From Acetobacter nitrogenifigens DSM 23921 = NBRC 105050 (GTDB lineage Bacteria > Pseudomonadota > Alphaproteobacteria > Acetobacterales > Acetobacteraceae): a stretch of 64,000 nucleotides of DNA. Below are positions 48,810-64,000 of the stretch, in pieces. Numbering within the stretch: position 1 is the first letter of the stretch; every line of letters starts with the position of its first letter. The position numbers were made by a program, and so were the translations under genes. The notes below the pieces were generated by a model. The model was not told where the DNA came from, did not search any database, and worked only from the letters and a program-made list of their open reading frames with translations. The stretch is taken from positions 1 to 64,000 of the forward strand of contig NZ_AUBI01000012.1 in the NCBI RefSeq assembly GCF_000429165.1, read 5' to 3'.

Positions 48810-50279
48810 TCAGGCGGAAGCGTAAGGATCCGCGACTTGCGGCCAGAGAGGACGCCCCGCGCGAGGCAAATCGAGTTCCGCCATATCGGGCCTTACGCAG
48901 CCCGGCGCCGAAACGAAGAGAACTTCCGAAGCGACGCCGACGAAGCGATTGTAAAAATGTTGCGCTGACTTCACGATCACCGCACGTTTGCTCGACAGGT
49001 CGATTCCAAGGTTCGTGAAGGCTTCAGGCGAAAACGTCTGCTGGCGTCTGGAAACAATGACGACGTCAACCCCTTCGACTTCCAGCCACGCAGCCGCCCC
49101 CAAGGAAGAACGGCCTCCGCCCAGCCCCACCTGCAAAAGTTCGTCCGTCACCCCACGAACGACGCCCGTTACATCCAGCGGATCGCTGGAGGTCAGCCCG
49201 CATTTGCCGCCGACGCGCAGGGTCAAGGTTTCCCCGGCGCCTGCCTCAAGACACGCCGATACGACCATCGGGTCCCAGATACACCCAAGAGCCACTCCCT
49301 CGACGCCGCTATCAAGAAGGTGGCGCAGAACAACCGTATTATCAGAGGGCGCGCCGCCGCCCGCGTTATCTGAAACGTCCGCTAGCACCAGCGGCCTGCC
49401 TGGCGGAGCGGTGAGAATACGTTCGATTGCTTCGTCGACGGACAGGAGACTGGCTTCATTCGCCTCTCGCATGTCCCATATTTCCTGGGCTAGGCGGGCG
49501 GCGAGATCGGCGGCTCGTCCCGCGTCCCCGTCAGCGATAACCAGCGTCTTTGCGCCAACGTCCGGAACGTCCGCCCAGGGGAAGCCATGGGCAAAGGAGA
49601 CCGAAAGAATCCCGTCCTTTCCTTCGAGCGCCTGCATTCTGTCGACGAAGGAGCGCACCGGCTCGTGCGGCGTACGCCAGACCGAGAGCATACGGCAATC
49701 GTGCTCAGCCATGACCGGGTTTATGCGTCCTTCAGCGGTATCGACCGCCAGACGATAAAGTTCGATCGCTCGCGGTTCGATATCGTCGTGCGGATACTCC
49801 TTGTACAAAACGATCAGGTTTGCGCTCTCTCGCATTTTTTTTGTCAAATGACAGTGCAAATCAAGAACGGTTCCTACGACTGCGTCAGTACCGACTATGG
49901 CGCGCACGTGAGCGAGCATGTCACCCTCACAATCATCATAGCCCACAGCCACCATCGCGCCGTGCATGGACAAAAGAACGACGTCAACCGGCAACGCCGC
50001 CTTCAGGTCATCCATGATGTATCCGCGTATTTCCTCATAAACGCCACGCAACGTCAGGCCTGCGGGTTGCGCGAATGAGCACACGCTTTCAATAATCTCA
50101 TGCCCCTCGGCCTCCGCGAGTTGTCGCCATGCTTTCAGCGGCACGCTGGCCATTGTTGTCGGGTGGTCGGTGGCGCCGTTACGGAACCAGTCACGGTCGC
50201 CCATGAACGCGCTGCGCCCGGTCATGATCGGCGAGAACGTATTTGTTTCTGTCCCGAACGTCGCTATGAAAATTCTCAT
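48810..50279 (-). CDS. M81-family metallopeptidase (MlrC-like)
   Basis: This 489-residue protein fits peptidase family M81: FGTETNTFSPIMTGRSAF at the start, SMHGAMVAVGYDDCEGDML (104 onward), VLDLHCHLTKKM (140 onward) with metal-binding His, YPHDDIEP, and a C-terminal domain with VLADVSDNAGGGAPSDNTVVL. MlrC of sphingomonads, a member, cuts linearised microcystin. The start overlaps the G3E GTPase stop by 4 bp, so it is the last gene of a coupled trio with the D-aminoacylase-like and GTPase genes. It probably hydrolyses a short or modified peptide in the cytoplasm. Confidence 0.9.
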   Translation of the reverse strand: MRIFIATFGTETNTFSPIMTGRSAFMGDRDWFRNGATDHPTTMASVPLKAWRQLAEAEGHEIIESVCSFAQPAGLTLRGVYEEIRGYIMDDLKAALPVDVVLLSMHGAMVAVGYDDCEGDMLAHVRAIVGTDAVVGTVLDLHCHLTKKMRESANLIVLYKEYPHDDIEPRAIELYRLAVDTAEGRINPVMAEHDCRMLSVWRTPHEPVRSFVDRMQALEGKDGILSVSFAHGFPWADVPDVGAKTLVIADGDAGRAADLAARLAQEIWDMREANEASLLSVDEAIERILTAPPGRPLVLADVSDNAGGGAPSDNTVVLRHLLDSGVEGVALGCIWDPMVVSACLEAGAGETLTLRVGGKCGLTSSDPLDVTGVVRGVTDELLQVGLGGGRSSLGAAAWLEVEGVDVVIVSRRQQTFSPEAFTNLGIDLSSKRAVIVKSAQHFYNRFVGVASEVLFVSAPGCVRPDMAELDLPRAGRPLWPQVADPYASA

Positions 50280-51256
50280 TTATCTGATTCCTGTGTGATC
50301 ACGACGCAGCGGTCGAGCGCCTCCGCCAGATCCCTCGACGGGAATCCCTGGCGGCGCCCAATAAATACAAGTCGGGTGCGTGGGTCAGTCGCCGCCCGGT
50401 CAGGCGCAGGCCCGAGAGACGCGCGGCGTCCGACCATTTGAAGCAGAAGCGGGCGTCCAGACGCCCCCGCATGATAGAGAATACCCTTCGCTCGCAGAAG
50501 TTGAGCTGAAAAACGTCCTACCGTTTCCTGAAACAATGCAAGATCGACAGGGCGCGCTGATTCCCAGGCCAGACTTGCAAAATTGTCCTCAGCTTTACCG
50601 CCTTCCACGCCAGAGGCGAACGCCGTAAATCGCCTCCGCCCTGCCGGTCCGGACAGAGCCGAGTGCGCCAACAACGCTTCAGGGGTATCGACAACAGGCG
50701 TCCCCGGAGCAATGTTCCGCAAACGCGTTTGGACGAAATCGACTTCTGCGGGAGCAAGAAGATCCAGACGCGACAGCGTCAGCAGATCAGCGGCTCGTAT
50801 CTGTTCAATCCACAGCGGGTCGAAAGCCCTCTCATCTTCAGCAACCAGCCACTGCGCGTCGACGACGCAAAGAACGCCCTCCAGAGCCGCATGTCTCCAA
50901 ATCACGGAGTCCATCAGCGCCGTTCGCATATCGGACAACCGGGAAACCCCGCTGCATTCGATCACGATCATTTCCGGCTGCGGCGTTCTCCCAAGCAACA
51001 TCCTGATTGTCGAAAAGAGGTCTCCCTGCAACGAGCAGCACACGCACCCATTGCGAAGCGAGAGAATATCTTCCTCTCGCCGCTCGATCAGCGTTGAATC
51101 TACGTCTATGGCGCCAAAATCGTTGACGATCACGGCAAGATTTTCGGCCTCCCGACGCGCCATCAATCTGTTGAGAAGCGTCGTCTTGCCTGCGCCAAGA
51201 AAGCCGCCCAGCACATAGACCGGGACGGCGACGTCGCCGAGCAGCGAACCGTTCAT
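50276..51256 (-). CDS. G3E-family GTPase (CobW/metallochaperone-like)
   Basis: This 326-residue protein has Walker A GGFLGAGKT at 17-25, the metal-binding GCVCCS at 70-75 (CxCC), IVIECSG at 97-103 (Walker B region) and SRLDLL as the NKxD-like site, then a C-terminal CobW_C-like half. Such GTPases deliver zinc, cobalt or nickel to enzymes. ATGA overlaps on both sides tie it to a D-aminoacylase-like amidohydrolase before and an M81 metallopeptidase after, both metal enzymes, so a dedicated metal-supply role is likely. The metal and client are not proven by the sequence. Confidence 0.9.
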   Translation of the reverse strand: MNGSLLGDVAVPVYVLGGFLGAGKTTLLNRLMARREAENLAVIVNDFGAIDVDSTLIERREEDILSLRNGCVCCSLQGDLFSTIRMLLGRTPQPEMIVIECSGVSRLSDMRTALMDSVIWRHAALEGVLCVVDAQWLVAEDERAFDPLWIEQIRAADLLTLSRLDLLAPAEVDFVQTRLRNIAPGTPVVDTPEALLAHSALSGPAGRRRFTAFASGVEGGKAEDNFASLAWESARPVDLALFQETVGRFSAQLLRAKGILYHAGASGRPLLLQMVGRRASLGPAPDRAATDPRTRLVFIGRRQGFPSRDLAEALDRCVVITQESDK

Positions 51257-52743
51257 CGACGCCCTAACCGCCCCCTGACCGGCCGTCCCGGGGCGGCATC
51301 CACCCGCAATTCTCCGCCGTCGATAACCGGTTCGCCATTCACCAGGAGAAAGGATACGCCTTCCGAACGTCGGTTCATCGCCGAAAATTCAGCCTTGTCG
51401 GCAATCGTATCCGGATCGAAAATCACGATATCGGCGTCGCAACCCTCTTGCAGTCGCCCCTTTCGACGCATCTGCGGAGCCGCGGATTCGATGATTTTCG
51501 CGGGCCCCAGAGAACAGCGACGCATTGCCTCAAGAAGAGAAACTTTCTTTCGTTCCCGCATATACTCCCGAAGAAATTTTGTGAACGTTCCGGAAGACCG
51601 AGGATGCGACGACGCCTCCGCCGGCAACGGCCATTCGCCGCCTTCGTAGGTCGAGCCATCCGGCAGGGTCCACGGCATGGCGTCCGACGCGATGATACCG
51701 CCAGGATACAGTACCGACGTATCCAGCAACTCCCTATGGCGGGGAACGCCTTCGACATCGAGAAAATGCCACAAGACCAACGTGTCCGGGCGCTCCTGCT
51801 GCGCGGCGAGAAGTTCGTCCCGGCTGGATATCCTTTGTCCGTTCTCAACCTTCTGGATAGCCGGGTAATCATTTCCCGTCCGTTCCCGAAACGCCGGATC
51901 CGCAAAGAACGGCGCTCCGATCACTGTGGACCCGGTTCCGTACGGATAAGCTTCCACCGTAACCTTCAGGCCTTGCTTCTGGGCCATGAGCACCAGTTCG
52001 GCCGCGCGCTCCACATCCTGCAAGCTGGTGCTGTTGAAGTGGCAGATATGCATATGCGCGCCAGTAGCGCCTGCGTAGCCGATGAGCCGCGTATAGGCGT
52101 CGATCGAGCTTCTCGGATCGATGTTCGATGAATAAGCAATATGGGTGTATGTCGGGACGTCATAACGTGCGGCAAGCGAGCAGACATCGACGATCTCCTT
52201 CGCTCCCGCGCCCGGGAGATAGGCATTCGGGATGCCTATACCGACGCCGCCTTCTTCCAGCCCCCGCTCGACGAGAGCGAGGATTTTTCTGCTTTCACTG
52301 TCTGAAGCCGTGTTCTGGCTCCAGCGCGGGTCGTCAAAACACTTGCCCATGAAAGACAACGATGGCTCCAGCGGTCGCTCGATGATCGCCGAAATTCTGG
52401 CGAACGCCCATGCCGCCGCAGCGCCATAGTTCAGCACACGCCCGACGTCCGCCTGCTTCTCGTACCATTTCGCCACGGGCAGAATGCCTACCTCACACTC
52501 GAGGGTCGTCGTCACCCCGTCGAACGCTTGCATCCGGTCGGCAGGTATCGATTGCCCGTGCGCGTGAATATCTATGAAACCGGGAGCCACGACCTGGCCC
52601 GCAGCGTCGATCTCCCGAACGGCTGCTCCCGAGACCGCTCCAACCCGCTCGATGGTCCCGGAACGTATGGCGACGTCGCCACGTTTCTCCAGTCCCGTTT
52701 CCGGGTCGACGAGAATGCCGTCGCGGATAATAACGTCGTACAT
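51253..52743 (-). CDS. N-acyl-D-amino-acid deacylase-like amidohydrolase
   Basis: Starting at the ATG at 52741-52743 (AGGA eight bases upstream; ATG at 52752 also possible) the protein has 496 residues. It fits the D-aminoacylase branch of the amidohydrolases: GFIDIHAHGQ with metal His60/His62, TTTLECEVG with the metal Cys83, THIAYSS and HICHFNSTS for further metal His, and GGIIASDAMPW with the catalytic Asp. It should cleave N-acyl-D-amino acids or related N-acyl/ureido compounds. It overlaps the GTPase gene by 4 bp and follows the CapA-like gene by 10 bases. Confidence 0.9.
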   Translation of the reverse strand: MYDVIIRDGILVDPETGLEKRGDVAIRSGTIERVGAVSGAAVREIDAAGQVVAPGFIDIHAHGQSIPADRMQAFDGVTTTLECEVGILPVAKWYEKQADVGRVLNYGAAAAWAFARISAIIERPLEPSLSFMGKCFDDPRWSQNTASDSESRKILALVERGLEEGGVGIGIPNAYLPGAGAKEIVDVCSLAARYDVPTYTHIAYSSNIDPRSSIDAYTRLIGYAGATGAHMHICHFNSTSLQDVERAAELVLMAQKQGLKVTVEAYPYGTGSTVIGAPFFADPAFRERTGNDYPAIQKVENGQRISSRDELLAAQQERPDTLVLWHFLDVEGVPRHRELLDTSVLYPGGIIASDAMPWTLPDGSTYEGGEWPLPAEASSHPRSSGTFTKFLREYMRERKKVSLLEAMRRCSLGPAKIIESAAPQMRRKGRLQEGCDADIVIFDPDTIADKAEFSAMNRRSEGVSFLLVNGEPVIDGGELRVDAAPGRPVRGRLGRR

Positions 52744-52753
52744 ATTGCTCATC

Positions 52754-54073
52754 CTATGCAGGCACGTAGCGCAGCGTTTCGCCATCGAGCGCCAATTCCG
52801 TGCCAAACGGTCGGGATAACGCATCAAGGCGTCCCAGGATCGATCTGGCTTGTTCACCTTTGGCAAGTCGGGGAACGCCACGTTGATGCGCCGCTCCGCC
52901 AAGCCCGAGTTCGACAGGATGAATGACCATTTCCTTCAGAAGACCATGCTCGAATTTACAAATTGGCGTCACGGTTTCCCAAAATCTTGTTTCAGCAGGA
53001 AAACCCTTCGTATCGTTCTCCGTACGTAGCCGATAGACATGCGCGGGCGTCATGTCAGATGGGGCTCGAAACCGACGGTACGAGTCTGCCGGCAGTCGCG
53101 GCACCAACTCATTCTGGCCGATGAAATTTCCCAGACTGTAAAAGATCGGCTTCCCCCGGTAGAATTCTATTCCCCTAAGGAGATGCGGGCCGTGTCCAGC
53201 GACGACATCGGCGCCGGCGTCGATAACGCTGTGAGCGAAATCGCGAAAAAATGGCGCAGGCGTCTCTTCGTCAATGACGCCAGCGTCGTTGTAGCCGGGC
53301 TCGTGCGAATGCACGCTCACTATGACGACGTCAGAGACCAGGCGCGCTTCTTTCACCCAGCGGACGATGTCATCCACGTCCTCAGCGCGAGCCGTCGCCC
53401 TAATTCTGGTCTCCTTGCCGGGACGGAAATTCAATCCCCCTAAGGGCAACATTTGAGGATCGGCTGGCTCGAACCCAAAACCAAGCCTGACGATCGCGCG
53501 TCGCATAGTCTCAAGCCCCAGTTGCTCCGCGATCTCCCGCAAAACCGCCATCTGCGCTTCGGTGACTTCATATGTAGCCGCATAGTGGAGAGGATTGCAC
53601 CCGGGGCGCCCCTGCATGGCGTCTGTCTGGGCGGCCGCTTCCTGCCCGACGCCGAACGTGGACGTGCATGACAGCATCGCCACGGTTCCGTTCGGATGCG
53701 TGCAATATGTCGGCATACGGGCGCGGGTCAGGTCCGGGCCTATGCCCGCGTAAAGAACCTGCCTTTCGTCGAGTTCTTTCATCGCCTTGCGCAGACCGGA
53801 AATACTGTAATCCAGACTATGATTCGTCGCCGCGGCGAACAGGTCGAAGCCTGCTTCGGTCAGTTCGTCGATAACCCATGACGCCGCGCCGAAATGGGAC
53901 CCTCCGCTCTCGAGCGCGGGATCTCCTTCATAATCGTTCGGCAACACCTCGAGATTGGTGAAAGAAACGTCAGCCTCACGAATCAAATCGAATAGCGGCG
54001 CAATGCGCGCGTCGGAGAAACTGTTCAAACGACGCAACAGAATGCTATCGCCGGTGAGCGAAAGTGAAAGCAT
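52754..54073 (-). CDS. CapA/PgsA-family metallophosphatase-like protein
   Basis: This 439-residue protein has the CapA (poly-gamma-glutamate synthesis) pattern: LSLTGDSILLRR, DVSFTNLEV, FDLFAAATNHSLDYSISGLRK with the metal site, VVIVSVHSHEPGY, and AGADVVAGHGPHLLRGIEFYRGKPIFYSLGNF. There is no signal peptide or membrane helix, unlike capsule CapA/PgsA proteins, so it is probably a cytoplasmic hydrolase. No PgsB/C partners are present. It sits between the TonB receptor and the D-aminoacylase-like gene, which suggests a role in using a gamma-glutamyl or phosphorylated compound rather than making a capsule. Confidence 0.85.
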   Translation of the reverse strand: MLSLSLTGDSILLRRLNSFSDARIAPLFDLIREADVSFTNLEVLPNDYEGDPALESGGSHFGAASWVIDELTEAGFDLFAAATNHSLDYSISGLRKAMKELDERQVLYAGIGPDLTRARMPTYCTHPNGTVAMLSCTSTFGVGQEAAAQTDAMQGRPGCNPLHYAATYEVTEAQMAVLREIAEQLGLETMRRAIVRLGFGFEPADPQMLPLGGLNFRPGKETRIRATARAEDVDDIVRWVKEARLVSDVVIVSVHSHEPGYNDAGVIDEETPAPFFRDFAHSVIDAGADVVAGHGPHLLRGIEFYRGKPIFYSLGNFIGQNELVPRLPADSYRRFRAPSDMTPAHVYRLRTENDTKGFPAETRFWETVTPICKFEHGLLKEMVIHPVELGLGGAAHQRGVPRLAKGEQARSILGRLDALSRPFGTELALDGETLRYVPA

Positions 54074-54177: not shown

Positions 54178-54193
54178 CCTGTCGTGACTGATT

Positions 54194-56617
54194 TCAGAAG
54201 TCGAAGCCGAACCGGCCGCCGACGAAACGGGGAGAGCCTGAGATACCCGTCAGTGCCGTCGTCGCCGCCACCGGGACGACCAGTATGTAATGCCGGTTCG
54301 TCAGATTTTCAGCGTATGCAGTAACGAACCACTTGCTGTTGATCGGCTTGAACGTAACGCTGGCGCCCATCAGGAAATAAGACGGCACGACGTAAACGCC
54401 GGAGCCGCGCGGCTGCAGGCTGTCCTGCTGCGTCCGGTAAGAGTAATCGACCGCAAAGTTCAGCTTGTATTTCTTGAAGACAGGGCGAGTGTCGTAACTG
54501 GCCATGCCGCTCAGGGTAAGCTTCGGCATACCCATATCAGCGCCGTCATAGCTGCTGTAGACGGGGGAATAGACGCCCGTCAGTTTGTAATTGGCCGAAA
54601 CCGCAGCGCTGTTGACCTGTTGGTAATCCGTATATTTTCCCCGCAGGTAACCGAAAGTCTGTGTAAGAGTCAGGCCGGGAAACGGGTTCGCGTCCACCGT
54701 GAACTCGGTTCCCCAGATTTTCGAATGCGGGATATTGACGTAGGATCCATATGTTCCGGGCGTGCCGCTGCTCGTTGCGACGTTCGGATTGCCCGAAATG
54801 ACCACAGTGCCGAGCATCTGCTTGTCATGATAGTCGTCGTAGAACATCGCCGTGTTGAGGCGTAGCCTGTGATTGAAGAATTCCGTTTTCAGACCGATCT
54901 CATACGCCAGAACCCATTCGGGTTTAAACGGTTTGATCTGAACATCGGATACGGTGGTGTTGGTCGTGAATCCGCCCGGTTTCACGCCGCGCGAGATGCT
55001 TGCATACGCCAGGATATTATCCGTAGCCTGCCAGGCGAGCGCGGCTTTTCCAGAAAACTGGTTGGTCAGCGCGCCTCTGGTCCCAAAGCTCGTCTCACTC
55101 ATACAGGTTGCCGCGCCGTTACACCTCGCGGCCTGAGTCGTCGAAGGCTGCATGTAGTATTGTTTGACCGCATCGCCAACAAGCTGACGCTCGTCGCTCT
55201 GATGCGTCAGACCGAACGTGAACTTCAGCTTGCGCGTCAAATCGTAGCCTAACGTCGCATACTGGCTGAAATTTTCTTGCGGCTGATTATGCAGACTGTC
55301 TCGGAAATACCCTACGTAATCCGTAAGATCGAACCAGTTGGCGCCGAAGGCCCGAACCCGATTGTAGTATAGGCCTGTCGTCCAGTGAAACCGGCCATTC
55401 AGCAGCGGCTTTCCTTCCAGGCGGATTTCTTGAGAGAAGACATTCGTATTTCCTGCGAAATACGTATCGCCGGAACGGAACGCCAGGGCGTCGCGGTCGA
55501 CATATTCATGTCTCTGTTGTTGAGAGAAATTACTGATACTGACCAGCTTTGCGAAATTCAGTTCGCGAGACGCCTTGAGTGTAATCCCCCACGTCACGTC
55601 ATTATTCGACGGAATACTCTTGGGGTTGATGCCGATCAGTTTTGCGTATTGCGGATTCAGACTCCAGCCCGTGGCGTAAATGTTCTGATCGCGCGGAGCG
55701 TTGCTGAGCGTGGAAAAATCCTGGAGCACGAAAGCGCCTGTGGCGTCCGAGCGATCGAGCGACCAGTTGCTGATCAGATCGATATTGGTCTTCTCGTCAG
55801 GCTGCCATGCAAGACGCCCTCTGATAGCGCCCATGTTCGCATTGCCAAGTTTTTGCCCCGTCACGCGATTAAAGCGAAACGCTCCCCCTTCCATGTTCAA
55901 AGCGGAGATACGGTATTGCAGATTGCTCGTGATCGGTCCGGAAACATATAACGTGGTCTTGCTGCGATCCCGGGTCGCAAGATCTTCTGTAATTCCGTAG
56001 TGAAGTTCTTTCGTGGGCGCCCGGCTTTCGATGCGCACCTCTCCACCGGTGTCCGACAGCCCGTGAGTAAATCCTACAGGACCCGGATCCGCAGCCACGC
56101 TCTGCACATCGAACATCTGGCCGCTGCTCATGGACGAAATCGGGTAGGCGACGTCGTCAAAGTAGGTCAACACCGACGGCATGTTGTTCTGGGTGTAATC
56201 CTGGAGACCGATGCCGCGCAGGTAGTAAGAGGGCGCATTCGAACCGCCTTCCGTCTGCACCGTAAGGTTCGGCACAATGCGACCGAGATCCATGACGCTG
56301 TTAATATGACGCTGCGTCAACACCTCCTGATCCAGATAAGTCGCCGAGTTGGCTTCGTGCTGCTGCGCCGAAAACTTCAATACGCGATGGCGTGCCACCA
56401 CGCTGACAGCTTCCGTGTCCGTTCGCACCATGGATTGTCGCTTGCGCAGCGTAGCGGGTTTTGCAGGCTGCGCCACAGCCGCAGTTCCGACGTTTACGTG
56501 CGGCGCGGCTTTTTTGTGCGTCGCAGACGCCGCGCGCACAGCGCCACCATGAAGCGCGCATAGCGCGGTGGCCACGGAGAGCGACTTTTTCAGGTGCAAT
56601 GATGAAACGCGAACCAT
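54194..56617 (-). CDS. TonB-dependent outer-membrane receptor of the D-amino-acid locus
   Basis: This 807-residue receptor has a signal peptide (to about 30), an Ala/Lys/His/Pro-rich linker, a TonB-box-like EAVSVVA at 69-75 and a plug (QEVLTQRHINSVMDLGRIVP, APSYYLRGIGLQDYTQNNMP). A barrel follows and ends in VGGRFGFDF with the terminal aromatic residue. It sits between the RpiR regulator and the CapA-like, D-aminoacylase, GTPase and M81 genes on the same strand, so its ligand is probably the substrate of that pathway rather than iron. No Fur-like box was seen upstream. Confidence 0.9.
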   Translation of the reverse strand: MVRVSSLHLKKSLSVATALCALHGGAVRAASATHKKAAPHVNVGTAAVAQPAKPATLRKRQSMVRTDTEAVSVVARHRVLKFSAQQHEANSATYLDQEVLTQRHINSVMDLGRIVPNLTVQTEGGSNAPSYYLRGIGLQDYTQNNMPSVLTYFDDVAYPISSMSSGQMFDVQSVAADPGPVGFTHGLSDTGGEVRIESRAPTKELHYGITEDLATRDRSKTTLYVSGPITSNLQYRISALNMEGGAFRFNRVTGQKLGNANMGAIRGRLAWQPDEKTNIDLISNWSLDRSDATGAFVLQDFSTLSNAPRDQNIYATGWSLNPQYAKLIGINPKSIPSNNDVTWGITLKASRELNFAKLVSISNFSQQQRHEYVDRDALAFRSGDTYFAGNTNVFSQEIRLEGKPLLNGRFHWTTGLYYNRVRAFGANWFDLTDYVGYFRDSLHNQPQENFSQYATLGYDLTRKLKFTFGLTHQSDERQLVGDAVKQYYMQPSTTQAARCNGAATCMSETSFGTRGALTNQFSGKAALAWQATDNILAYASISRGVKPGGFTTNTTVSDVQIKPFKPEWVLAYEIGLKTEFFNHRLRLNTAMFYDDYHDKQMLGTVVISGNPNVATSSGTPGTYGSYVNIPHSKIWGTEFTVDANPFPGLTLTQTFGYLRGKYTDYQQVNSAAVSANYKLTGVYSPVYSSYDGADMGMPKLTLSGMASYDTRPVFKKYKLNFAVDYSYRTQQDSLQPRGSGVYVVPSYFLMGASVTFKPINSKWFVTAYAENLTNRHYILVVPVAATTALTGISGSPRFVGGRFGFDF

Positions 56618-56692: not shown

Positions 56693-57553
56693 TCAACTCT
56701 TGAAGGCGAGAACGTCGATCTCCTCCATCAGGCTTTCCACCTGCGTGAGCCTGCTCGCCACGGCGCCGCCGACGGACTGTTCGAGCAGCGACGCAAGGCA
56801 GTTCACCAACGTCATGGCCGCGCCATAACTGTCGAAAATCCCCCTGCCCTCGACCGCGCAGCGAAGCGTCAGATTGACACCGTCATCGTTGGGCGGAGCA
56901 TCGAAGTCCCCGATCTGAAGCACTTTCGCACCACGCCGCTGGGCCACACGCGCAATCCGCCCGCGGACAGGGCGCCGTCGCCGAAAGGACAACAATACGA
57001 CCAGATCGTTTTCCGCAACATTCACCAGATCTTCGCCCAAAGTCATCCCCGCACGGGGAAGAAGAGCAGCGCCCTCGCGCATGAGATTGAGAATATTGTG
57101 AAGATAGGAACCAACGATCATCGAGTTACGAAAACCGACGATCCAGATGCGGCGAGCGTCCCTGAGCATCGCGACCGCCCGCTCCAGCTTGTCGGCGGCA
57201 AGATCGTCGGCCGTGCGCGACAGGTTATGATTTTCCTGCCGCACATAGTCAGTAAAATCGTAATTGATCTTTTCATGACGTTCCGTGCTGCGAAGAGCCA
57301 CAAGCGGCGACCCCATCTGCGCGCGTTCACGCGCCTGGGTGTGCGCCTGCTGATAGCTTTCATAGCCCAGACGACGAAAAAAGCGCGCCGCCGTCGGGTT
57401 CGACACCTGCGCACGCGTCGCAATTTCTCCGGCAGTAAAGCCCGAGAAATTACATTCCATCTCAAGTATGACCGCGGCGAGCCTGCGTTCGCCGACGGAC
57501 AACTCGTCTTGAACGTTCATGATTCGAACCTCGATCGGGGTGTCGTTTTCCAT
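56693..57553 (-). CDS. RpiR-family regulator with SIS domain
   Basis: This 286-residue protein has an N-terminal RpiR helix-turn-helix (LSVGERRLAAVILEMECNFS, FTAGEIATRAQVSNPTAARF) and a C-terminal SIS domain (RRIWIVGFRNSMIVGSYLHN, ENDLVVLLSFRRRRPV) that normally binds a phosphosugar or other phosphorylated ligand. The ATG at 57551-57553 has GTGAGTGCGG just before it. It is the first gene of the minus arm and faces the plus arm across a 144-bp spacer with a 9-bp inverted repeat. It probably controls both arms. Confidence 0.9.
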   Translation of the reverse strand: MENDTPIEVRIMNVQDELSVGERRLAAVILEMECNFSGFTAGEIATRAQVSNPTAARFFRRLGYESYQQAHTQARERAQMGSPLVALRSTERHEKINYDFTDYVRQENHNLSRTADDLAADKLERAVAMLRDARRIWIVGFRNSMIVGSYLHNILNLMREGAALLPRAGMTLGEDLVNVAENDLVVLLSFRRRRPVRGRIARVAQRRGAKVLQIGDFDAPPNDDGVNLTLRCAVEGRGIFDSYGAAMTLVNCLASLLEQSVGGAVASRLTQVESLMEEIDVLAFKS

Positions 57554-57570
57554 CCGCACTCACTTCACTT

Positions 57571-57598
57571 TCGGAATGAAACACATTTATCATTCCGA
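57571..57598. promoter_or_regulatory. 9-bp inverted repeat, candidate RpiR operator
   Basis: TCGGAATGA (57571-57579) is repeated exactly in inverted form, TCATTCCGA (57590-57598), with a 10-base AT-rich centre. It lies in the 144-bp spacer between the RpiR gene and the plus-strand catabolic arm. RpiR regulators bind such GGAAT-type palindromes in some bacteria, so this is a strong candidate operator for both arms. Confidence 0.65.
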
Positions 57599-57697
57599 AC
57601 ACAACATGAAAAAATTATTTCGTTACGATCTTGACGAACCGACCTCCGGCGCGGCCTGATGCGACTCCCCCTCCCAAATCAGCGTCAGTAACGCCCG

Positions 57698-58288
57698 ATG
57701 CTTTCTCCAGCCTACATAGCCCCCACCCCGGTTACCGAGGAGCAGTTTGCGCGCCCGGCCGGACCGACCGCAGCCGCTCCGGTGCGCGCAACCGTACGTG
57801 CCGGGCCGCAATACACCCTCACGTCACTCATGTCGCTTCAGGCGCTGGCGACCTCGCGCGGGTGCAATCCTCTGTTCTACAAGCAGGAAAGCGAGCGCTT
57901 CGGTCTCGGCAACATCAAGGCGTTCGGCTGCGCCCATGCGCTGCAGAAACGCGCGACAGACGACACTCAAGGGGTCTCGGTGGTCAAGGGCGAGCGCGAC
58001 TGCCGCCGTGGCATCTATGTCCATGAGCATGTCACCGCCGCTCGCGCGGACGCCGTCTCCGACGCCGCCATGTGGCGCGCGCAGCAGGCGCCCGAGCGTA
58101 ACGGGTGGCGCGTGACATCTGGCACGTCCCGTTCCAGTTACGGAGAGAGTCCGGGCTGGGTCATGCAGGGCTACAGCTTTATCGACGAAGAAATCCGTAA
58201 CCAGACGCCCGACGCGCCGCCGACGCACGTGTTACTTCAGGCGCATATAGACGGTGAAGCAAGCCAAGTCGCCGTCTGTGTCGGTTGA
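57698..58288 (+). pseudogene. Decayed diaminopropionate ammonia-lyase (dpaL-like)
   Basis: A 196-residue frame keeps scattered segments of diaminopropionate ammonia-lyase, a PLP enzyme. These are FYKQESERFGLGNIKAFG (around the PLP lysine), a degraded ATDDTQGVSV where intact enzymes read CATDGNHGRSVAWGA, IYVHEHVTAARADA, GWRVTSGTSRSSYGESPGWVMQGY and PTHVLLQAHIDGEA. Blocks between them are missing, and the frame stops at about half of the usual ~400 residues. This is a relic, not a working enzyme. It is the first item of the plus arm, so the pathway may once have ended in deamination of a diamino or D-amino acid. Confidence 0.75.
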
Positions 58289-58477
58289 TGAACTACGCAT
58301 CAACGCAACGCGTTTGAACGCTTCACTACAAACCGCCAGAACACATCGCCGCCCTTTTTGGCGACTGCGTGCCGCACAACATCAAGGAATGCACAGCGCC
58401 GAAAGATTTGGTTCGAGGCACAGAAGTTTTCGCGCGCTTCGTTCTGCGTTATAGCGAAATTTCATCGGAGCAGGGTC

Positions 58478-59392
58478 ATGACAAGAGAAATTATCATCGC
58501 CGGCGCGCAGATGGGGCCGATCGCGCGGGTCGACACAAGAGAAAGCGTGGTGGCTCGCATGACCACTCTGCTTGAGAAGGCCGCGCGAATGGGCGCGCAA
58601 CTGGTCGTTTTCCCGGAGCTCGCGCTTACGACGTTTTTTCCTCGCTGGTTCATGGCGGAACAACAGGAGATCGACGTCTTCTTTGAAACGCAAATGCCAA
58701 ACGAGTCGACAGAGCCACTTTTCACGCGTGCGCGGTCTCTGGGCGTGGCGTTCACGTTCGGTTTCGCTGAAAAAGTGACCGAAAATGGGATCGTCAGACG
58801 TTTCAATACGTCAGTTCTCGTCAACATACAGGGGGAGATTGTCGCGCGTTATCGCAAAATCCACCTACCGGGTCATTCCGAACATGAGCCATGGCGCGCG
58901 TTTCAGCATCTCGAAAAACGTTATTTCGAACCAGGAGAGGGATTTTTCGAAACGACCGACCTTCTTGGCGGCCACTTCTCCATGGCCATCTGCAACGATC
59001 GGCGCTGGCCGGAAACATATCGCGAAATGGCGTTGCGTGGGGCCGAGGTCGCGACCATCGGTTACAACACGCCTCTACATTACGCGCAGGCCCCGGAGCA
59101 CGACCACCTTCAGTCCTTTCATAACCACCTTTGCCTGCAAGCCGGGGCCTACCAGAACGGCCTGTGGGTCGTGGGCGTCGGCAAGACGGGCGTCGAGGAG
59201 GGTTGCGGCCTGCTCGGCCAAAGCTGCATCGTCGCCCCCACGGGTGAAATCGTCTCGATGGCCAGCACCACTGGCGACGAAGTGATCGTCGCGGCGTGCG
59301 ATCTCGACCGTTGCGCGGAAATTCGCGAAAATATTTTCAATTTCGCGAAAAATCGACGCCCGGAAATGTACCCGTTGCTCAGCGCAGTATGA
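58478..59392 (+). CDS. N-carbamoyl-D-amino-acid hydrolase (nitrilase family)
   Basis: This protein of exactly 304 residues, the length of known D-carbamoylases, has its catalytic triad in place: Glu47 (FPELAL), Lys127 (RYRKIHLPG) and Cys172 (AICNDRRWPET). Other matches are TTFFPRWFMAEQ, HLEKRYFEPGEGFF and GCGLLGQSCIVAPTGEIV. It cuts N-carbamoyl-D-amino acids to D-amino acid, CO2 and ammonia, the last step of the hydantoinase route. The ATG at 58478 has a GGAG upstream. No hydantoinase is in the window. It is followed by two MFS transporters and two hydrolases. Confidence 0.93.
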   Translation: MTREIIIAGAQMGPIARVDTRESVVARMTTLLEKAARMGAQLVVFPELALTTFFPRWFMAEQQEIDVFFETQMPNESTEPLFTRARSLGVAFTFGFAEKVTENGIVRRFNTSVLVNIQGEIVARYRKIHLPGHSEHEPWRAFQHLEKRYFEPGEGFFETTDLLGGHFSMAICNDRRWPETYREMALRGAEVATIGYNTPLHYAQAPEHDHLQSFHNHLCLQAGAYQNGLWVVGVGKTGVEEGCGLLGQSCIVAPTGEIVSMASTTGDEVIVAACDLDRCAEIRENIFNFAKNRRPEMYPLLSAV

Positions 59393-59597
59393 GCGCGAGC
59401 CTGCTCCGCAGCGATAAAATCGTTTTTAAATCGCATCGTCTGTTGGACGAATGGAAACTGGAGGCTAGCCTGTCGGCAGACACCGTTTATGGGAACGTCA
59501 CCACGCGAGGAGCACGACGCCTTTGGCCCCTGACGACGCCAACCCCACAGACGGCCAATCCCAGACGCCAGCGCGCGCATCGCCCAGGAGCCCTGCC

Positions 59598-60941
59598 ATG
59601 ACTGCGGTCCGGACATCGACACTCTCAGACTCCCTCGGCGCCGGGACGCTGCCCACAGCGACCCTCGATGCGCTTTATCGCCGGATCGATCTGCGGGTCG
59701 TGACGATACTCGCGGTTTCATATCTTCTCGACTGTATCGACCGGCTCAATATCGGTTTCGCACAACACCAGATTTCAGAGCGGATCGGCCTTACGCCACA
59801 GGATTACGGCTTCGCGGCGGGTATCTTCTTCATCGGCTACGTGCTGTTTGAAATCCCGTCGAATTTACTTCTGCCGAAGGTCGGCGCCCGACGAACCTTC
59901 TTCCGCATCATGGTCCTGTGGGGACTGACCTCCGCCAGCATGGGTCTGATCACCAACCGCAACGCCTTCTATGTCATGCGTTTTCTACTCGGCGTCTTCG
60001 AGGCCGGGTTCGCTCCCGCCGCAATGTATTATCTGGCGAGCTGGTATCCACGCGAACGCATGGCTACTGCGATTTCGATCCAGCAGATTGCGGCGCCCAT
60101 GTCCGGCGTCATCGCCGGTCCCGTGTCAGGCATGCTTGTCCAGAACATGGATCACGTCGCCGGAGTCGACGGCTGGCGGTGGATGTTCTTTCTCGAAGGT
60201 CTGCCGTCGATCATCATGGGCTTCGTCGTTTTCGCGACGCTGCCGGACAAACCTTCCGAAGCACGGTGGCTGACGCCCGCCGAGGCCCGGATCGTCGAAG
60301 AAAACGCATCCTCGACCGGAAGCAGCCACCACGGATTTTCCGCCGTGCTGCGCGACAAAATGATCTACATCCTGTCGCTCGGCTACTTCTGCGTGATCTG
60401 CGGTCTCTACACGATCAGCTTCTGGCTGCCTACGGTCCTGCGTCAGTCAGGCGCGACCAGCGATCTTCAGATCGGATTTCTTGCCGCCATCCCGTTTTTC
60501 TGCGGAACTGTCGCCATCCTGACATGGGGACGGAGATCCGACCGCCTGCAGGAACGACGCTGGCATGGCGCCATCCCGGCTCTTCTCGCCGCGGTCGGGC
60601 TGGCGTCAATCGTCGCTACGACAGGCAGTCTGGTCGGCGCCGTAATCGCCTTGAGCGTAACGGCCATGTGCCTTTACTCCACATATCTGGTCTTCCTGTC
60701 CGTGCCTTCCGATCTTCTCAAGGGGCCGGGAGCAGCAGGCGGATACGCCCTGATCAATTCGATCGGCCTTCTTGGTGGTTTTTGTAGTCCGATCATCATC
60801 GGCCACGTCACGCAGATCACCGGCAACGTCAACGCGGGCCTGCTGACCATGAGCGGGATCGTCGCTCTTGGCGGGCTTATTTTCATCTTCGCCATTCCCG
60901 GAGGGCGCGCCACGCCAGCCGGGACGATGCCGCCGGAGTAA
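59598..60941 (+). CDS. MFS transporter, anion:cation symporter type
   Basis: This 447-residue protein starts at ATG 59598 with AGGAG eight bases upstream. Twelve helices are predicted, with ACS-family marks: LDCIDRLNIGFAQ in helix 1, GFAAGIFFIGYVLFEIPSNLLLPKVGARRTFF, and FEAGFAPAAMYYLASWYPRERM. Relatives carry organic anions such as tartrate, allantoate or phthalate. It is the first of two MFS genes after the D-carbamoylase, separated by seven bases from the second, and probably takes up an N-modified amino acid. Confidence 0.9.
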   Translation: MTAVRTSTLSDSLGAGTLPTATLDALYRRIDLRVVTILAVSYLLDCIDRLNIGFAQHQISERIGLTPQDYGFAAGIFFIGYVLFEIPSNLLLPKVGARRTFFRIMVLWGLTSASMGLITNRNAFYVMRFLLGVFEAGFAPAAMYYLASWYPRERMATAISIQQIAAPMSGVIAGPVSGMLVQNMDHVAGVDGWRWMFFLEGLPSIIMGFVVFATLPDKPSEARWLTPAEARIVEENASSTGSSHHGFSAVLRDKMIYILSLGYFCVICGLYTISFWLPTVLRQSGATSDLQIGFLAAIPFFCGTVAILTWGRRSDRLQERRWHGAIPALLAAVGLASIVATTGSLVGAVIALSVTAMCLYSTYLVFLSVPSDLLKGPGAAGGYALINSIGLLGGFCSPIIIGHVTQITGNVNAGLLTMSGIVALGGLIFIFAIPGGRATPAGTMPPE

Positions 60942-60948
60942 CGTAGTG

Positions 60949-62232
60949 ATGGCCGCCATGAGAGAGAGCCACGAAACGACGCCGGGCCAGAGCGGTGCCT
61001 CACGGTTTGGCAAGGACGCCATCCTGACTTTCGGCCTGCTGTATCTCGCGTGGTGCGTGTCCTACATGGACCGCGCGGCCATCACGTTCTCCGCGCCAGC
61101 GATGCTGCGCGACATCCATATGTCGCCGACGGAACAAGGCTTCATCGTCGGTATTTTCTACCTCAGCTACTCGTTGATGCAGACGCCCGGCGGCTGGCTC
61201 GCCGACCGCTTTGGCGCGAAGGCAGTGGTTCTGGCCGGCCTTGTCGCGTGGTCAGCCTTCACGCTCGGGACCGGGCTGGTCCAGTCTGTCGCGGCGCTGT
61301 TGGCCGTCCGGCTGCTGTTCGGCATTGGCGAAGGCGTGTTTCCCGCCGCCAGCCTCAAGGCCCTATATGACGCGGTGCCAGCCCGCGCCCGTGACAAGGC
61401 GCCGTCCGCGCTGATGTCCTCGAATTATTTCGGATACCTGATCGCGCCGTCGATTCTGCTGCCCGTGCTCGCCTGGATGGGCTGGCGTTGGACATTTTAC
61501 GTGATGAGCGGCATCGGTTTCGCCACCGCGCTTCTGGTGCTCCTGCTGGCGCCGAAAGGTTCTGCTCCATCCCGCGATGCGCCTTCCGCTCCGAAAGGGG
61601 CTGGCGTCCTCAGGGCGTTGCGTCTTCCAGGCGTCACCCGGCTGATGGCGACCTGGTTCCTGATCAGCTTCATCAACAAGGGGCTGGAAAGTTGGATGCC
61701 CACATACCTTCTTCATGAGCGCGGCGTATCGCTCAAGGAAGCAGGCGTTCTTCTCACCCTGCCATATGCCGCGGCAACCATCGCCGCCCTGATTGGCGGC
61801 TGGGCGATGTCCCGCTGGTTTGCGCAACGCGAAGAACGATTTATCTCGCTGTGCGTCGTCATCTCATGCGCGGCGCTGCTCGCCATGGCGTATTGCTCGT
61901 CCGTGCTGGCCGTCGTCGGCTTCGAGACGCTGCTCTACTTCTTCAAGACGCTCGTGTTCGCGGCGGTCCTCTGCCTGCCGGGCCGCTTCCTGCCGCAGGA
62001 CATCGCAGGCGTCGGTTACGGTCTGATCAATTTCGGCGGCCAGATCGCGGGTTTCGTGGCGCCGCCTGTGATCGGCACAGTTCTCAGCATGACCGGCAGT
62101 TACCCCGCCGCCTTTCTTACCCTTCTCGTCGCGGGCGTTCTTGCCCTCGCGCTGAACAGCGCGCTTGGCAGGTTCAAGAATCCCGCTGGAAAACTGATGA
62201 CTTTCGGAGCCGACAATCATGGAACTGTGTGA
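60949..62232 (+). CDS. MFS transporter, second of the catabolic arm
   Basis: This 427-residue protein has twelve helices and MFS marks: LTFGLLYLAWCVSYMDRAAI, GFIVGIFYLSYSLMQTPGGWLADRFGAK and LFGIGEGVFPAASLKALYDAV. These place it in the same broad anion:cation symporter group as its neighbour but clearly different in sequence. The ATG at 60949 has GGAG ten bases upstream. The end overlaps the amidase start by 14 bases. Two carriers in one operon suggest separate uptake of two forms of substrate, or import plus export. Confidence 0.9.
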   Translation: MAAMRESHETTPGQSGASRFGKDAILTFGLLYLAWCVSYMDRAAITFSAPAMLRDIHMSPTEQGFIVGIFYLSYSLMQTPGGWLADRFGAKAVVLAGLVAWSAFTLGTGLVQSVAALLAVRLLFGIGEGVFPAASLKALYDAVPARARDKAPSALMSSNYFGYLIAPSILLPVLAWMGWRWTFYVMSGIGFATALLVLLLAPKGSAPSRDAPSAPKGAGVLRALRLPGVTRLMATWFLISFINKGLESWMPTYLLHERGVSLKEAGVLLTLPYAAATIAALIGGWAMSRWFAQREERFISLCVVISCAALLAMAYCSSVLAVVGFETLLYFFKTLVFAAVLCLPGRFLPQDIAGVGYGLINFGGQIAGFVAPPVIGTVLSMTGSYPAAFLTLLVAGVLALALNSALGRFKNPAGKLMTFGADNHGTV

Positions 62233-63724
62233 CGCAACTGCTGTCGAGCTGCTCGATCTTTACCGCTCCGGCGAAGCCTCCCCGGTCGAGGTGTTGCGAT
62301 CCTGCCAGAACCGGACGGACAAGGTTAACCCCGCCGTCAACGCCATCGTTTGCGAAGATCGCGACGCAGCTTTGGCTTCGGCCCGCCTGGCGGAGGACGC
62401 ATGGCGACGCGGCGAACCCACCGGCCCCCTTTGCGGCATTCCCCTTGCAGTAAAAGATACGCACGTCACGGGCGGTCTTCGCACCACATTCGGCAGCCCG
62501 CAGTTTCGCGACTGGATACCGGAAAAGGATCAGAATTTCGTCGCTACATTAAGGGTGGCTGGAGCAGTGATCACCGGAAAGACCAACGTCCCCGAATGGG
62601 CGGCTGGCGCCAACAGCCGAAATCCCGTTTACGGCGCAACAGGAAATCCATTCGATCCTGCGCTCAACGCCGCCGGATCGTCCGGCGGATCGGCGACGGC
62701 GCTCGCCTGCGGCATGGCCGCCCTCGCCACCGGCTCTGACACGGGCGGTTCCTTGCGGAACCCCGCGGCATTTAACGGCGTCGTCGGATACAGACCATCT
62801 TCGGGGCTCCTTCCCAGCGAACGTCGCGTGCACGGCTGGTCCTGCCTGTCCTGCGACGGCCCAATGGGCCGCACCGTGGCGGACACTGCCCTTATGCTCT
62901 CCGTCTCAGCGGGCGATTTCAGCTACGACCCCCTCGCCTACACGCTGCCCGGAGAGGCTGTTCGCGCCCGGCCAGAGCGGTATTTTCCGTCAGAGCCGAT
63001 TGATCTTTCGAAACTGCGTCTCGCCGCCACGGAAGATTTCGGCCATGCGCCGACCGAGAGCATCGTCAGACGCGCCTTTCGCGACAAACTGCCTGCCATA
63101 ACCGCACTGTTCGCCTCCAGCGAAAACGCCGCCCCCGACTGCTCGGGTGGTCATGAGGCTTTCGCGATCCTGCGTGCGGCGATGTTCCAGTCCACCCACG
63201 GCGAACGCTACAAAACACATTACGATCTTTTGGGGCCGAACATACGCGCAAATGTCGAAGAAGCCGCCACCTACTCACTTGTCGATTACGCCTGGGCGGC
63301 GGAGACGCAGACGAAAATCTATCGCCGGTATCAGACCTTCTTCGAAAATTTCGACATCATCGTAAGCCCTGCGATCACCATAAGCCCACGTCCATGGACC
63401 GAACTTTATCCAACCGAGATCGACGGCGTCCCGACGACGAACTATTTCCAATGGCTCTCCCTCGCCTATCTGGTCACGTTGACAGGACATCCCTGCGTCA
63501 GCATCCCGGTCGGTGTCGACGAACGGGGCATGCCGTTCGGCCTGCAGATCGTCGGACCGCGCGGCGCCGACTCTCTGGTCCTGCAAACAGCCGCCGCCAT
63601 CGAAGCAGCCTTCTCAACCTCCCCGACATTGCGCCGTCCGGTCCCTGACATTACCGCGCTCTCAACCATGCAACCTATCGCCTCGCGCCCCGGCTTCATG
63701 CCCCTGCCCGGCAGCGACGCGTAA
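62219..63724 (+). CDS. Amidase signature (AS) family hydrolase
   Basis: This 501-residue amidase has the Ser-cisSer-Lys triad in order: Lys79 (IPLAVKDTH), Ser154 (NAAGSSGGSAT) and nucleophile Ser178 (GSDTGGSLRN), spaced as in known AS enzymes. The family hydrolyses a wide range of amides. It starts with ATG inside the preceding MFS gene (14-base overlap), so it is translationally linked to the transporter, and an M20 hydrolase follows after 41 bases. It is a candidate for removing an amide cap from the imported compound. Confidence 0.93.
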   Translation: MELCDATAVELLDLYRSGEASPVEVLRSCQNRTDKVNPAVNAIVCEDRDAALASARLAEDAWRRGEPTGPLCGIPLAVKDTHVTGGLRTTFGSPQFRDWIPEKDQNFVATLRVAGAVITGKTNVPEWAAGANSRNPVYGATGNPFDPALNAAGSSGGSATALACGMAALATGSDTGGSLRNPAAFNGVVGYRPSSGLLPSERRVHGWSCLSCDGPMGRTVADTALMLSVSAGDFSYDPLAYTLPGEAVRARPERYFPSEPIDLSKLRLAATEDFGHAPTESIVRRAFRDKLPAITALFASSENAAPDCSGGHEAFAILRAAMFQSTHGERYKTHYDLLGPNIRANVEEAATYSLVDYAWAAETQTKIYRRYQTFFENFDIIVSPAITISPRPWTELYPTEIDGVPTTNYFQWLSLAYLVTLTGHPCVSIPVGVDERGMPFGLQIVGPRGADSLVLQTAAAIEAAFSTSPTLRRPVPDITALSTMQPIASRPGFMPLPGSDA

Positions 63725-63765
63725 TCGTTCCCTGCCCGTCAATCTGATCATCGAGGAAAACCGCC

Positions 63766-64000
63766 ATGCGTAACAGCGACGAAGTCTGGAGCCGCATCGA
63801 TGAACTCGGCCCGGCGTTCTGTGATCTGTCCGACCGTATCTGGGATCAACCTGAACTGGCCTATGGCGAGTTCGCGGCCGTCGCCGAACACGCGGCCATG
63901 CTTGAGCAGCAAGGCTTCAAGGTCACGCGCGACGTCGCCGGAATTCCCACCGCTGTAACTGGAGAGTTTGGCGAAGAAGGCCCTGTCATCGCGATTCTGG
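63766..64000 (+). CDS. M20-family amidohydrolase/peptidase, N-terminal part (runs off window end)
   Basis: The first 78 residues of a longer protein are present. MRNSDEVWSRIDELGPAF and SDRIWDQPELAYGEFAAV followed by EQQGFKVTRDVAGIPTAVTG and EEGPVIAIL match the start of AbgB-type M20 amidohydrolases, which cut p-aminobenzoyl-glutamate or other N-acyl amino acids and dipeptides. The metal ligands lie beyond the window. It continues the plus catabolic arm, and GAGG precedes its ATG at about ten bases. Confidence 0.85.
   Translation, partial: MRNSDEVWSRIDELGPAFCDLSDRIWDQPELAYGEFAAVAEHAAMLEQQGFKVTRDVAGIPTAVTGEFGEEGPVIAIL

Follow-up and report, generated by a model that had tools for sequence, protein, structure and literature searches.

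A locus combining predicted hydrolases of capped amino acids with carriers and a putative epimerase was identified in Acetobacter nitrogenifigens DSM 23921, in a stretch of 64,000 nucleotides (hereafter the window) that comprises positions 1-64000 of contig 11 (118,738 bases) in a genome of 4.27 Mb. The locus, two gene arms that diverge from each other, had been described in an earlier note made from the sequence; we confirm that this observation is real, that its theme is largely right, and that the locus is real and recurrent. The earlier suggestion that the genes belong together was borne out by a comparison of gene neighborhoods, where a recurring linkage was found in Gluconacetobacter, in Komagataeibacter, and, for a triad of D-aminoacylase-like, G3E, and M81 genes, outside the family Acetobacteraceae. 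This linkage is more than expected by chance, as the gene set recurs in three genera and the triad in 18 of 80 M81 loci. With slightly better than even confidence, the locus is read as a regulon that breaks down amino acids of mixed or D configuration bearing an N-acyl or N-carbamoyl cap; their core would likely be a beta-substituted alanine such as D-serine or diaminopropionate. Its most novel part is the association of genes of the MslH type with hydrolases of capped amino acids, which extends to the archaea. Among the matches listed in the open-access literature, neither this locus nor a role of MslH-type proteins as racemases in catabolism was found described.

Gene content and organization of the locus

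All protein families named in the earlier note were recovered in place by Pfam and NCBIfam matches. The RpiR-family regulator, described earlier as facing two arms, itself opens the minus arm. From the regulator outward, this arm encodes RpiR (56693-57559; PF01380 38 bits and PF01418 32 bits, both above cut-off), a TonB-dependent outer-membrane receptor (54194-56617; PF00593 100 bits, PF07715 28.5 bits), a PGA_cap/CapA-like protein of the MslH type (52754-54073), which is a predicted epimerase of N-acyl or N-carbamoyl amino acids, a D-aminoacylase-like amidohydrolase (51253-52752; NF006560/PRK09061 748 bits, cut-off 340), a G3E/CobW GTPase predicted to be a metallochaperone (50276-51256; PF02492 143 bits), and M81a, a zinc amidohydrolase of the MlrC type (48810-50279; PF07364 278 bits, PF07171 171 bits).

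The plus arm begins with an N-carbamoyl-D-amino-acid hydrolase (D-carbamoylase; 58478-59392), followed by the transporters MFS1 (59523-60941; PF07690 171 bits) and MFS2 (60868-62232; PF07690 182 bits), an amidase-signature hydrolase (62219-63724; PF01425 308 bits), and an M20 amidohydrolase (63766-65193; TIGR01891 257 bits, cut-off 154) that crosses the end of the window. The arm does not stop at this gene, as the adjoining sequence (C11:62001-82000, locus L085) continues it to position 69562. Beyond the window, the arm further includes a GntP permease (65231-66577; TIGR00791 360 bits, cut-off 293), a pyridoxal phosphate (PLP) enzyme of the D-serine dehydratase type (66603-67649; Ala-racemase-N and D-Ser-dehydratase domains), RidA (67673-68035), and a second M81 protein, M81b (68081-69562). 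After M81b come a regulator, a nicotinamide adenine dinucleotide (NAD)-binding epimerase-type gene, and, convergent to the plus arm, a 1-aminocyclopropane-1-carboxylate (ACC) deaminase gene (72113-73129). The listed starts of three open reading frames (ORFs) are probably too early: a TTG at 52902 for the D-aminoacylase-like gene, where the start was set at 52752, position 58358 for the D-carbamoylase, where it was set at 58478, and that of MFS2. By eye, an N-terminal export signal is present only on the TonB receptor among the locus proteins, so the hydrolases would be cytoplasmic.

Four M81 genes were found in the genome, two of which mark both ends of the locus, and none in 14 control genomes. 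The third (C10:66599-67435, L086) has flanking genes that resemble a peptide ABC transporter by eye. The fourth (C8:57333-58187, L087) has a low GC content at third codon positions (GC3, 0.44) and adjoins a large possible TonB receptor gene, also by eye. Elsewhere in the window, two more large TonB-receptor-like genes were noticed by eye on the minus strand (20442-22853 and 24433-26913), neither of which matched the reference set, locus receptor included, at E 1e-8.

Recurrence and decay among the Acetobacteraceae

Among named relatives, Acetobacter sacchari TBRC 11175 is the nearest, with an M81a of 96% identity. Both arms are present in two species of another genus, Gluconacetobacter asukensis and G. 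tumulicola. In the minus arm, the identities to these species are 62% for RpiR, 71-72% for the TonB receptor, 73-75% for the CapA-like protein, 75-76% for the D-aminoacylase-like enzyme, 52% for G3E, and 74% for M81a. In the plus arm, they are 83% for the D-carbamoylase, 72-73% for MFS1, 71-74% for MFS2, 79-80% for the amidase, 84% for M20, 80% for GntP, 81-82% for the PLP enzyme, 80% for RidA, and 85% for M81b. Each arm keeps the gene order seen in the window, with two additional genes, for diaminopropionate ammonia-lyase (DpaL) and an L-carbamoylase-type enzyme, between M81a and the D-carbamoylase. Both arms lie on one strand, one after the other, separated by an aldehyde dehydrogenase and a dehydrogenase gene on the opposite strand, and an ACC deaminase gene, 94% identical to that of the window genome, lies next to and convergent with M81b.

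Most of the gene set is also present, in rearranged form, in Komagataeibacter. In K. melomenusus, RpiR (36% identical) is accompanied by MFS1, the TonB receptor, the CapA-like protein, the D-aminoacylase-like enzyme, G3E, and M81a. A second group runs divergently from RpiR, as it does in the window, and consists of DpaL, the L-carbamoylase-type enzyme, the D-carbamoylase, the amidase, an unnamed ORF, and MFS2, while ACC deaminase, the PLP enzyme, RidA, M81b, and GntP follow past M81a. The divergent layout reported earlier is thus shared by the D-carbamoylase group of Komagataeibacter but not by the tandem arms of Gluconacetobacter. The D-carbamoylase match of K. melomenusus (L208; G1039:C71:38108-39037) contains one in-frame TGA and may represent a broken or mis-sequenced gene. 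Parts of the locus also occur separately. One other genus has the PLP enzyme/RidA/M81b/GntP module on its own in two stretches (L211 and L213), save for a nearby CN-hydrolase of 27% identity, and a third genome has the first half of the module on a short contig (L212). Similarly, genome G184 (L131) combines the CapA-like protein, MFS1, and the TonB receptor with a TIGR01879-family enzyme and an M20 of the window type (57%). Genes in these comparisons were called by a crude ORF and GC3 procedure that overlooks some genes and makes others too long; G3E in L006 and L009 and the PLP enzyme in L207 and L209 escaped it and were recovered by tblastn.

About 900 bases between RpiR and the D-carbamoylase of the window contain no recognized intact gene. 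A tblastn search of the whole window with the DpaL of Gluconacetobacter (L006) revealed a decayed DpaL remnant on the plus strand (57719-58273), the match spanning 57722-58270 (39% identity over residues 13-243, with internal deletions, E ~1e-37). The L-carbamoylase-type enzyme of Gluconacetobacter matched a scrap of 29 residues from the C-terminus of such an enzyme on the same strand (58369-58455; 58.6%, E ~2e-6). No other DpaL match was found in the genome at E 0.001, and A. sacchari has a shorter DpaL match at the same position (29%, E 4e-8). In both Gluconacetobacter and Komagataeibacter, the two genes immediately precede the D-carbamoylase. The Gluconacetobacter DpaL is intact (491 bits, cut-off 276), and the L-carbamoylase-type enzyme of L006 scores 412 bits against TIGR01879 (cut-off 204), a hydantoinase/carbamoylase family whose membership denotes a family and not a substrate. 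With remnants in the window and intact genes at the same place in its relatives, the window locus is evidently a worn form of a larger locus, from which DpaL and the L-carbamoylase-type enzyme were lost in this lineage.

The MslH-type protein

The protein described earlier as a CapA-like hydrolase is better regarded as MslH-like. MslH is the epimerase of a lasso-peptide C-terminal Trp (PDB 8gq9), with the metal-binding and catalytic residues D11, E44, N87, H88, D91, H259, H261, and H295 (PMC10406935). The window protein matches it over nearly its full length (352 bits, residues 2-429) and keeps all eight residues in the alignment, read as DENHDHHH. The same eight were kept in 67 of 75 aligned rows, MslH counted; the eight rows without the full set are L152, L166, L178, L182, L239, the incomplete L167, and the two generic PGA_cap proteins L247 and L248, which have Gly instead of His at position 261. 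Against the NCBIfam model for MslH (NF038314), the window protein scored 391 bits, below the cut-off of 700, and hence it is not filed as a lasso-peptide Trp epimerase.

A phylogeny was constructed by a quick method with midpoint rooting from 56 of the 75 aligned rows, 19 near-duplicates or fragments having been removed by hand. MslH joined the clade of the window protein with a Shimodaira-Hasegawa-like approximate likelihood ratio test (SH-aLRT) support of 99, and the generic PGA_cap proteins fell outside; other placements are unsure because of several long branches. The fold predicted from four sequences is of the calcineurin type, for which Foldseek returned MslH (8ith and 8gq9) at E ~1e-35 and the next other protein at 7e-7. 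As the mean predicted local distance difference test (pLDDT) score was 56, this match is supportive only. Elsewhere in the window, the N-terminus encoded at 34514-35332 resembles a YmdB-type metallophosphoesterase, a fold relative named for MslH.

Since all eight metal-binding and catalytic residues are kept, the CapA-like protein probably epimerizes rather than hydrolyzes. At E 1e-40 and with the window genome included each time, proteins of this type were found in 37 of 299 Acetobacteraceae genomes, nine of 385 genomes of the class, and eight of 398 genomes of the phylum.

Neighbors of MslH-type genes and of M81 in other taxa

A reference hydrolase was located within 2.5 kb and on the same strand in 20 of 49 MslH-type loci, a count in which related species are entered separately and the reference hydrolases were partly drawn from these same neighbors. 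For this reason, a separate count of Pfam families was made over 29 loci picked by hand, in general a single one per genus, with two genera represented by two loci each. Among the 25 families listed, M20 was the commonest in close neighbors, with eight of 112 genes as against at most one of 91 distant genes; two of 93 chosen distant genes ran off the end of a locus and were excluded.

The hydrolases near MslH-type genes are diverse. L-carbamoylase-type enzymes were found in five loci (L123, L124, L127, L128, and L131), and the three tested exceed the TIGR01879 cut-off. M20 enzymes 62-65% identical to that of the window occur in L137, L157-L160, and L168, and M20 enzymes of another type in L120, L126, L129, L130, and L180. 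A D-hydantoinase adjoins the MslH-type gene in L161 (541 bits, cut-off 393); in L162 and L163, of the same Acetobacteraceae genus, one lies about 5 kb away. Additionally, an amidohydrolase close to Xaa-Pro dipeptidase models was found in L133, a weak M81 match in L119, and a D-aminoacylase-like gene in L118. In Ruegeria and Sulfitobacter, the MslH-type gene overlaps an M20 gene annotated dapE by four bases, behind an ABC transporter. A C-S lyase of the PatB/MalY type, seen near MslH-type genes in L149 (by model match) and L124 (from the sequence start only), hints at cysteine S-conjugates as substrates in some lineages.

The association reaches the archaea. In three Haladaptatus plasmids (L228, L233, and L234), the MslH-type gene accompanies a D-aminoacylase (one was tested and gave 196 bits against PRK09061, short of the 340 cut-off) and a PLP enzyme annotated as alanine racemase (one was tested and gave 274 bits against the BhcC model, short of the 690 cut-off). 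The latter carries the H-x-C pair of D-serine dehydratase in all three, and two of the plasmids also have an annotated amidohydrolase, which is M20-type in the single case tested. These loci also include an SSS symporter, and two of them a creatininase. In Natrialba, a TIGR01879-family enzyme (355 bits, cut-off 204) lies near the MslH-type gene. On the symbiotic plasmid of Sinorhizobium fredii NGR234 (pNGR234a 165965-177227, L242), an MslH-type CapA gene comes after a dipeptide ABC transporter and ahead of an aminotransferase and an aldehyde dehydrogenase. Two further plasmid stretches, L238 and L240, carry no annotation.

The company of M81a was assessed in 80 loci out of 115 confirmed relatives, with partner genes sought within 7 kb. 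A D-aminoacylase-like gene was present in 18 of them, in every case together with G3E. Four of the 18 are Acetobacteraceae, and all 14 others encode a flavin adenine dinucleotide (FAD) oxidoreductase assigned to the DAO family (PF01266), as well as a TRAP large permease. This DAO-family/TRAP/M81/D-aminoacylase-like/G3E group is stable and looks like a separate amino-acid pathway. Annotated plasmid records are consistent with the grouping: that of Sulfitobacter alexandrii lists an XRE regulator, an FAD oxidoreductase, three TRAP genes, M81, an amidohydrolase, and CobW, and that of Roseomonas marmotae lists M81, a binding protein, an amidohydrolase, and CobW. Tistrella and Acuticoccus have the amidohydrolase/CobW pair with no M81 annotated in the stretch. 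An amidohydrolase of the D-aminoacylase-like family on a Streptomyces plasmid is found with M20, GNAT, and menC-annotated genes, and the menC family includes N-acylamino-acid racemases. An XRE-cupin regulator was also seen in the triad locus L018.

Hydrolases and the PLP enzyme

The theme of N-acyl and N-carbamoyl D-amino acids proposed earlier is upheld by the D-carbamoylase, the D-aminoacylase family, and an H-x-C PLP enzyme beside RidA. The D-carbamoylase scored 408 bits against PDB 1erz (residues 42-342 of the listed ORF) and 85 bits against the best chain outside the D-carbamoylases. The best NCBIfam model, N-carbamoylputrescine amidase, gave 112 bits (cut-off 410), and this label was set aside because solved D-carbamoylases match far better. 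Nearest to the D-aminoacylase-like enzyme among solved structures is the N-acyl-D-glutamate deacylase 3gip (113 bits), with D-aminoacylase at 90 bits, and N-acyl-D-amino acids are its predicted substrates by family match. The M81 proteins match MlrC (PDB 7ylq) with 309 bits for M81a and 374 bits for M81b, and have both N- and C-domains. The zinc ligands of MlrC are E39, D167, H169, and H191 (PMC9982164); by eye, the corresponding motifs read ETN, DLH, and YPH in M81a and are present in M81b. Against the microcystinase model NF041767, the two proteins scored 333 and 395 bits, below the cut-off of 999. Model matches of the M20 and amidase proteins give no D-specific assignment. The former view that all of the hydrolases cut C-N bonds in blocked or D-configured substrates must therefore be narrowed, in this respect and for the CapA-like protein, a predicted epimerase.

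By bits, the PLP enzyme is closest to the D-threonine aldolases (173), yet it reads NHAC where aldolases have H-x-D, as does D-threo-3-hydroxyaspartate dehydratase. A His/Cys metal pair marks D-serine dehydratase, and a His/Asp pair the aldolases (PMC4401734). An identity as D-threonine aldolase was ruled out on this pair, and the H-x-C pair was observed in all 21 loci examined. As RidA adjoins the enzyme, the natural reading is a beta-elimination to an enamine or imine followed by hydrolysis to the keto acid.

Regulation

A perfect 10-bp inverted repeat with a 10-bp spacer (57570-57599, no strand assigned) lies upstream of the start listed for RpiR, at a distance of 10 bp, and overlaps a promoter-like plus-strand match. 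It has one match in the window at up to three mismatches (0.02 expected) and is conserved in A. sacchari only (L005/L210), with no half-site near RpiR in L006, L009, or L007. The repeat is a candidate RpiR operator. The gap between the TonB receptor and CapA-like genes contains a hairpin without a clear T-run. Regulation by iron or a siderophore was rejected, as the window has no match to a Fur-box consensus at up to three mismatches. The TonB receptor itself gave only weak, generic model matches. The earlier notions of a siderophore-like substrate and of one too large for porins are left unsupported.

Proposed pathway and alternative explanations

In the proposed pathway, the TonB receptor together with the MFS and GntP carriers would import the capped compound, and the MslH-type protein would interconvert the two configurations at the alpha-carbon of the still-capped amino acid, such that stereospecific hydrolases could use both forms. 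Different caps would then be removed by the D-aminoacylase-like enzyme, whose metallation G3E may aid, by the two M81 proteins, the D-carbamoylase, the amidase, and M20. Once freed, the D-amino acid would lose its beta substituent through elimination by the H-x-C PLP enzyme, and RidA would hydrolyze the resulting enamine or imine to ammonia and a 2-keto acid, pyruvate in the case of serine or diaminopropionate. The lost DpaL would supply the same product from diaminopropionate. RpiR may sense an intermediate and act at the 57570-57599 palindrome.

Several observations weigh against this reading. Within the family, DpaL, which lends support to a beta-substituted core, is itself dead in the window, the Komagataeibacter RpiR is only 36% identical, Gluconacetobacter does not keep the divergent layout, and a genome of the same genus (G295) has the MslH-type gene with no match to the PLP enzyme. 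MslH acts on a peptide of 21 residues, and an activity on small molecules is thus an extrapolation. No reference hydrolase lies within 2.5 kb on the same strand in 29 of the 49 MslH-type loci; on plasmids, L225, L229, L237, L239, and L241 have other neighbors, L236 has just one carbon-nitrogen hydrolase about 3 kb away, and L242 has a dipeptide transporter and no annotated hydrolase. As for M81, 53 of the 80 loci have none of the four partner genes, eight of the 62 without a D-aminoacylase-like gene still have a DAO-family gene, and the best model for the Rhodobacterales DAO-family partner, ThiO glycine oxidase, reaches just 76 bits (cut-off 251).

That the MslH-type protein is instead a hydrolase, either a phosphoesterase or an amidase, appears rather unlikely. 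Its calcineurin fold would suit such a role, its gene often adjoins hydrolases, and the literature consulted gave no activity for a catabolic homolog; it nevertheless keeps H261, where two generic PGA_cap proteins have Gly, along with the other MslH residues, and groups with MslH at 99% SH-aLRT. The substrate could also be a ureido-diaminopropionate (2,3-diureidopropionate, albizziine, or ureidomethylhydantoin), the locus then being an aerobic counterpart of the lower reductive urate pathway, with its YgeW/UacY, YgeY, and DpaL steps (PMC12507026). Although relatives of the locus do combine a PF07969 enzyme, an L-carbamoylase-type enzyme, a D-carbamoylase, and DpaL, we consider this unlikely: neither DpaL nor the L-carbamoylase-type gene survives intact in the window species, a look through the annotated genes of the locus, though not of the whole genome, recognized no XdhD, YgfK, or SsnA, and M81, the amidase, and the TonB receptor are left unexplained.

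It seems quite improbable that the locus serves to scavenge or disarm a peptide antibiotic or siderophore that contains D-serine, diaminopropionate, or hydroxyaspartate. The TonB receptor of the minus arm would import the peptide, M81, the amidase, and M20 would dismantle it, and the remaining enzymes would consume the D-residues, in keeping with the cleavage of the Adda-Glu bond of linear microcystin by the M81 enzyme MlrC (PMC4810221) and with the kinship of the PLP enzyme to D-threo-3-hydroxyaspartate dehydratase. However, the window lacks a Fur-box match, the hydrolases carry no signal peptide by eye, and the 14 triad loci outside the Acetobacteraceae have a TRAP carrier and no match to the locus receptor. 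Plants N-malonylate D-amino acids and ACC, and N-malonyl or similar conjugates from host plants might also be the substrate, which we regard as very improbable. Both the window genome, close to the M81b end, and Komagataeibacter, close to the PLP enzyme, do have an ACC deaminase gene (TIGR01274 540 and 549 bits, cut-off 392), and in Gluconacetobacter one adjoins M81b; but two genes intervene in the window genome, namely the regulator and the NAD-binding epimerase-type gene, the deaminase may be an unrelated neighbor, and no malonate-using gene was noticed in the locus.

It is possible, though somewhat short of an even chance, that MslH-type proteins of the calcineurin fold are a family of metal-dependent racemases of N-acyl and N-carbamoyl amino acids in bacteria and archaea, paired for catabolism with any stereospecific hydrolase at hand (D-aminoacylase, L- or D-carbamoylase, M20, or hydantoinase), with MslH a biosynthetic recruit among them. 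If so, proteins annotated CapA, for capsule synthesis, would be catabolic amino-acid epimerases, the MslH fold would gain a general role, and new racemases would become available for producing single-handed amino acids. The M81 family, met in the literature cited here only as MlrC, would gain a natural set of partners and a class of substrates, and the locus would illustrate the use of capped D-amino acids and ureido compounds by bacteria as nitrogen sources. The catabolic company of the MslH-type protein and the tie between M81, the D-aminoacylase family, and the DAO-family oxidoreductase are the points for specialists.

Comparison with known systems

In hydantoinase/carbamoylase and N-acylamino-acid racemase/acylase systems, a racemase acting on a capped or cyclic amino acid is combined with a stereospecific hydrolase. 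The racemase proposed here differs from these in having the MslH/calcineurin fold, not that of an enolase or hydantoin racemase. From MslH itself, similar over nearly the full length and in all eight residues, it differs by its catabolic gene context. The M81 proteins share similarity and zinc-ligand motifs with MlrC, and no other mlr gene was recognized among the annotated locus genes.

The ong cluster of Pseudoalteromonas, which acts on GlcNAc1A (N-acetylglucosaminic acid) of oxidized chitin, includes a MurR/RpiR-family repressor (OngR), TonB receptors, a D-aminoacylase-like deacetylase (OngB), a D-amino-acid deaminase (OngC), and a RidA protein (OngD) (PMC9537276; pathway also in PMC12017989). 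At the family level, the window locus likewise brings together TonB, RpiR, a D-aminoacylase-like enzyme, a PLP enzyme of the deaminase type, and RidA, with a common logic of import, deacylation, and deamination. However, its deacylase matches OngB (9kb1) with 59 bits, below the D-aminoacylases at 90, and no 2-keto-3-deoxygluconate (KDG) kinase, GH20 OngA, or SSS symporter is among the 15 locus proteins compared with Pfam (the rest of the genome was not searched). GntP and MFS carriers take the place of the symporter, and two M81 proteins, G3E, the D-carbamoylase, the amidase, M20, and the MslH-type protein are additional.

In the reductive urate pathway, the 2-ureido group is removed by YgeW or, in another species, by UacY (PF07969, the D-aminoacylase-type family), the 3-ureido group by the M20 enzyme YgeY, and pyruvate is made by DpaL (YgeX) (PMC12507026). 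Relatives of the window locus have a PF07969 enzyme, an M20-type enzyme, and DpaL, of which the last is only a decayed remnant in the window species. XdhD, YgfK, SsnA, and HyuA were not recognized among the locus genes (again with the rest of the genome not searched), and the window locus has a D-specific carbamoylase and a dehydratase-type PLP enzyme. The window locus works like both the ong cluster and the lower reductive urate pathway, and is a member of neither.

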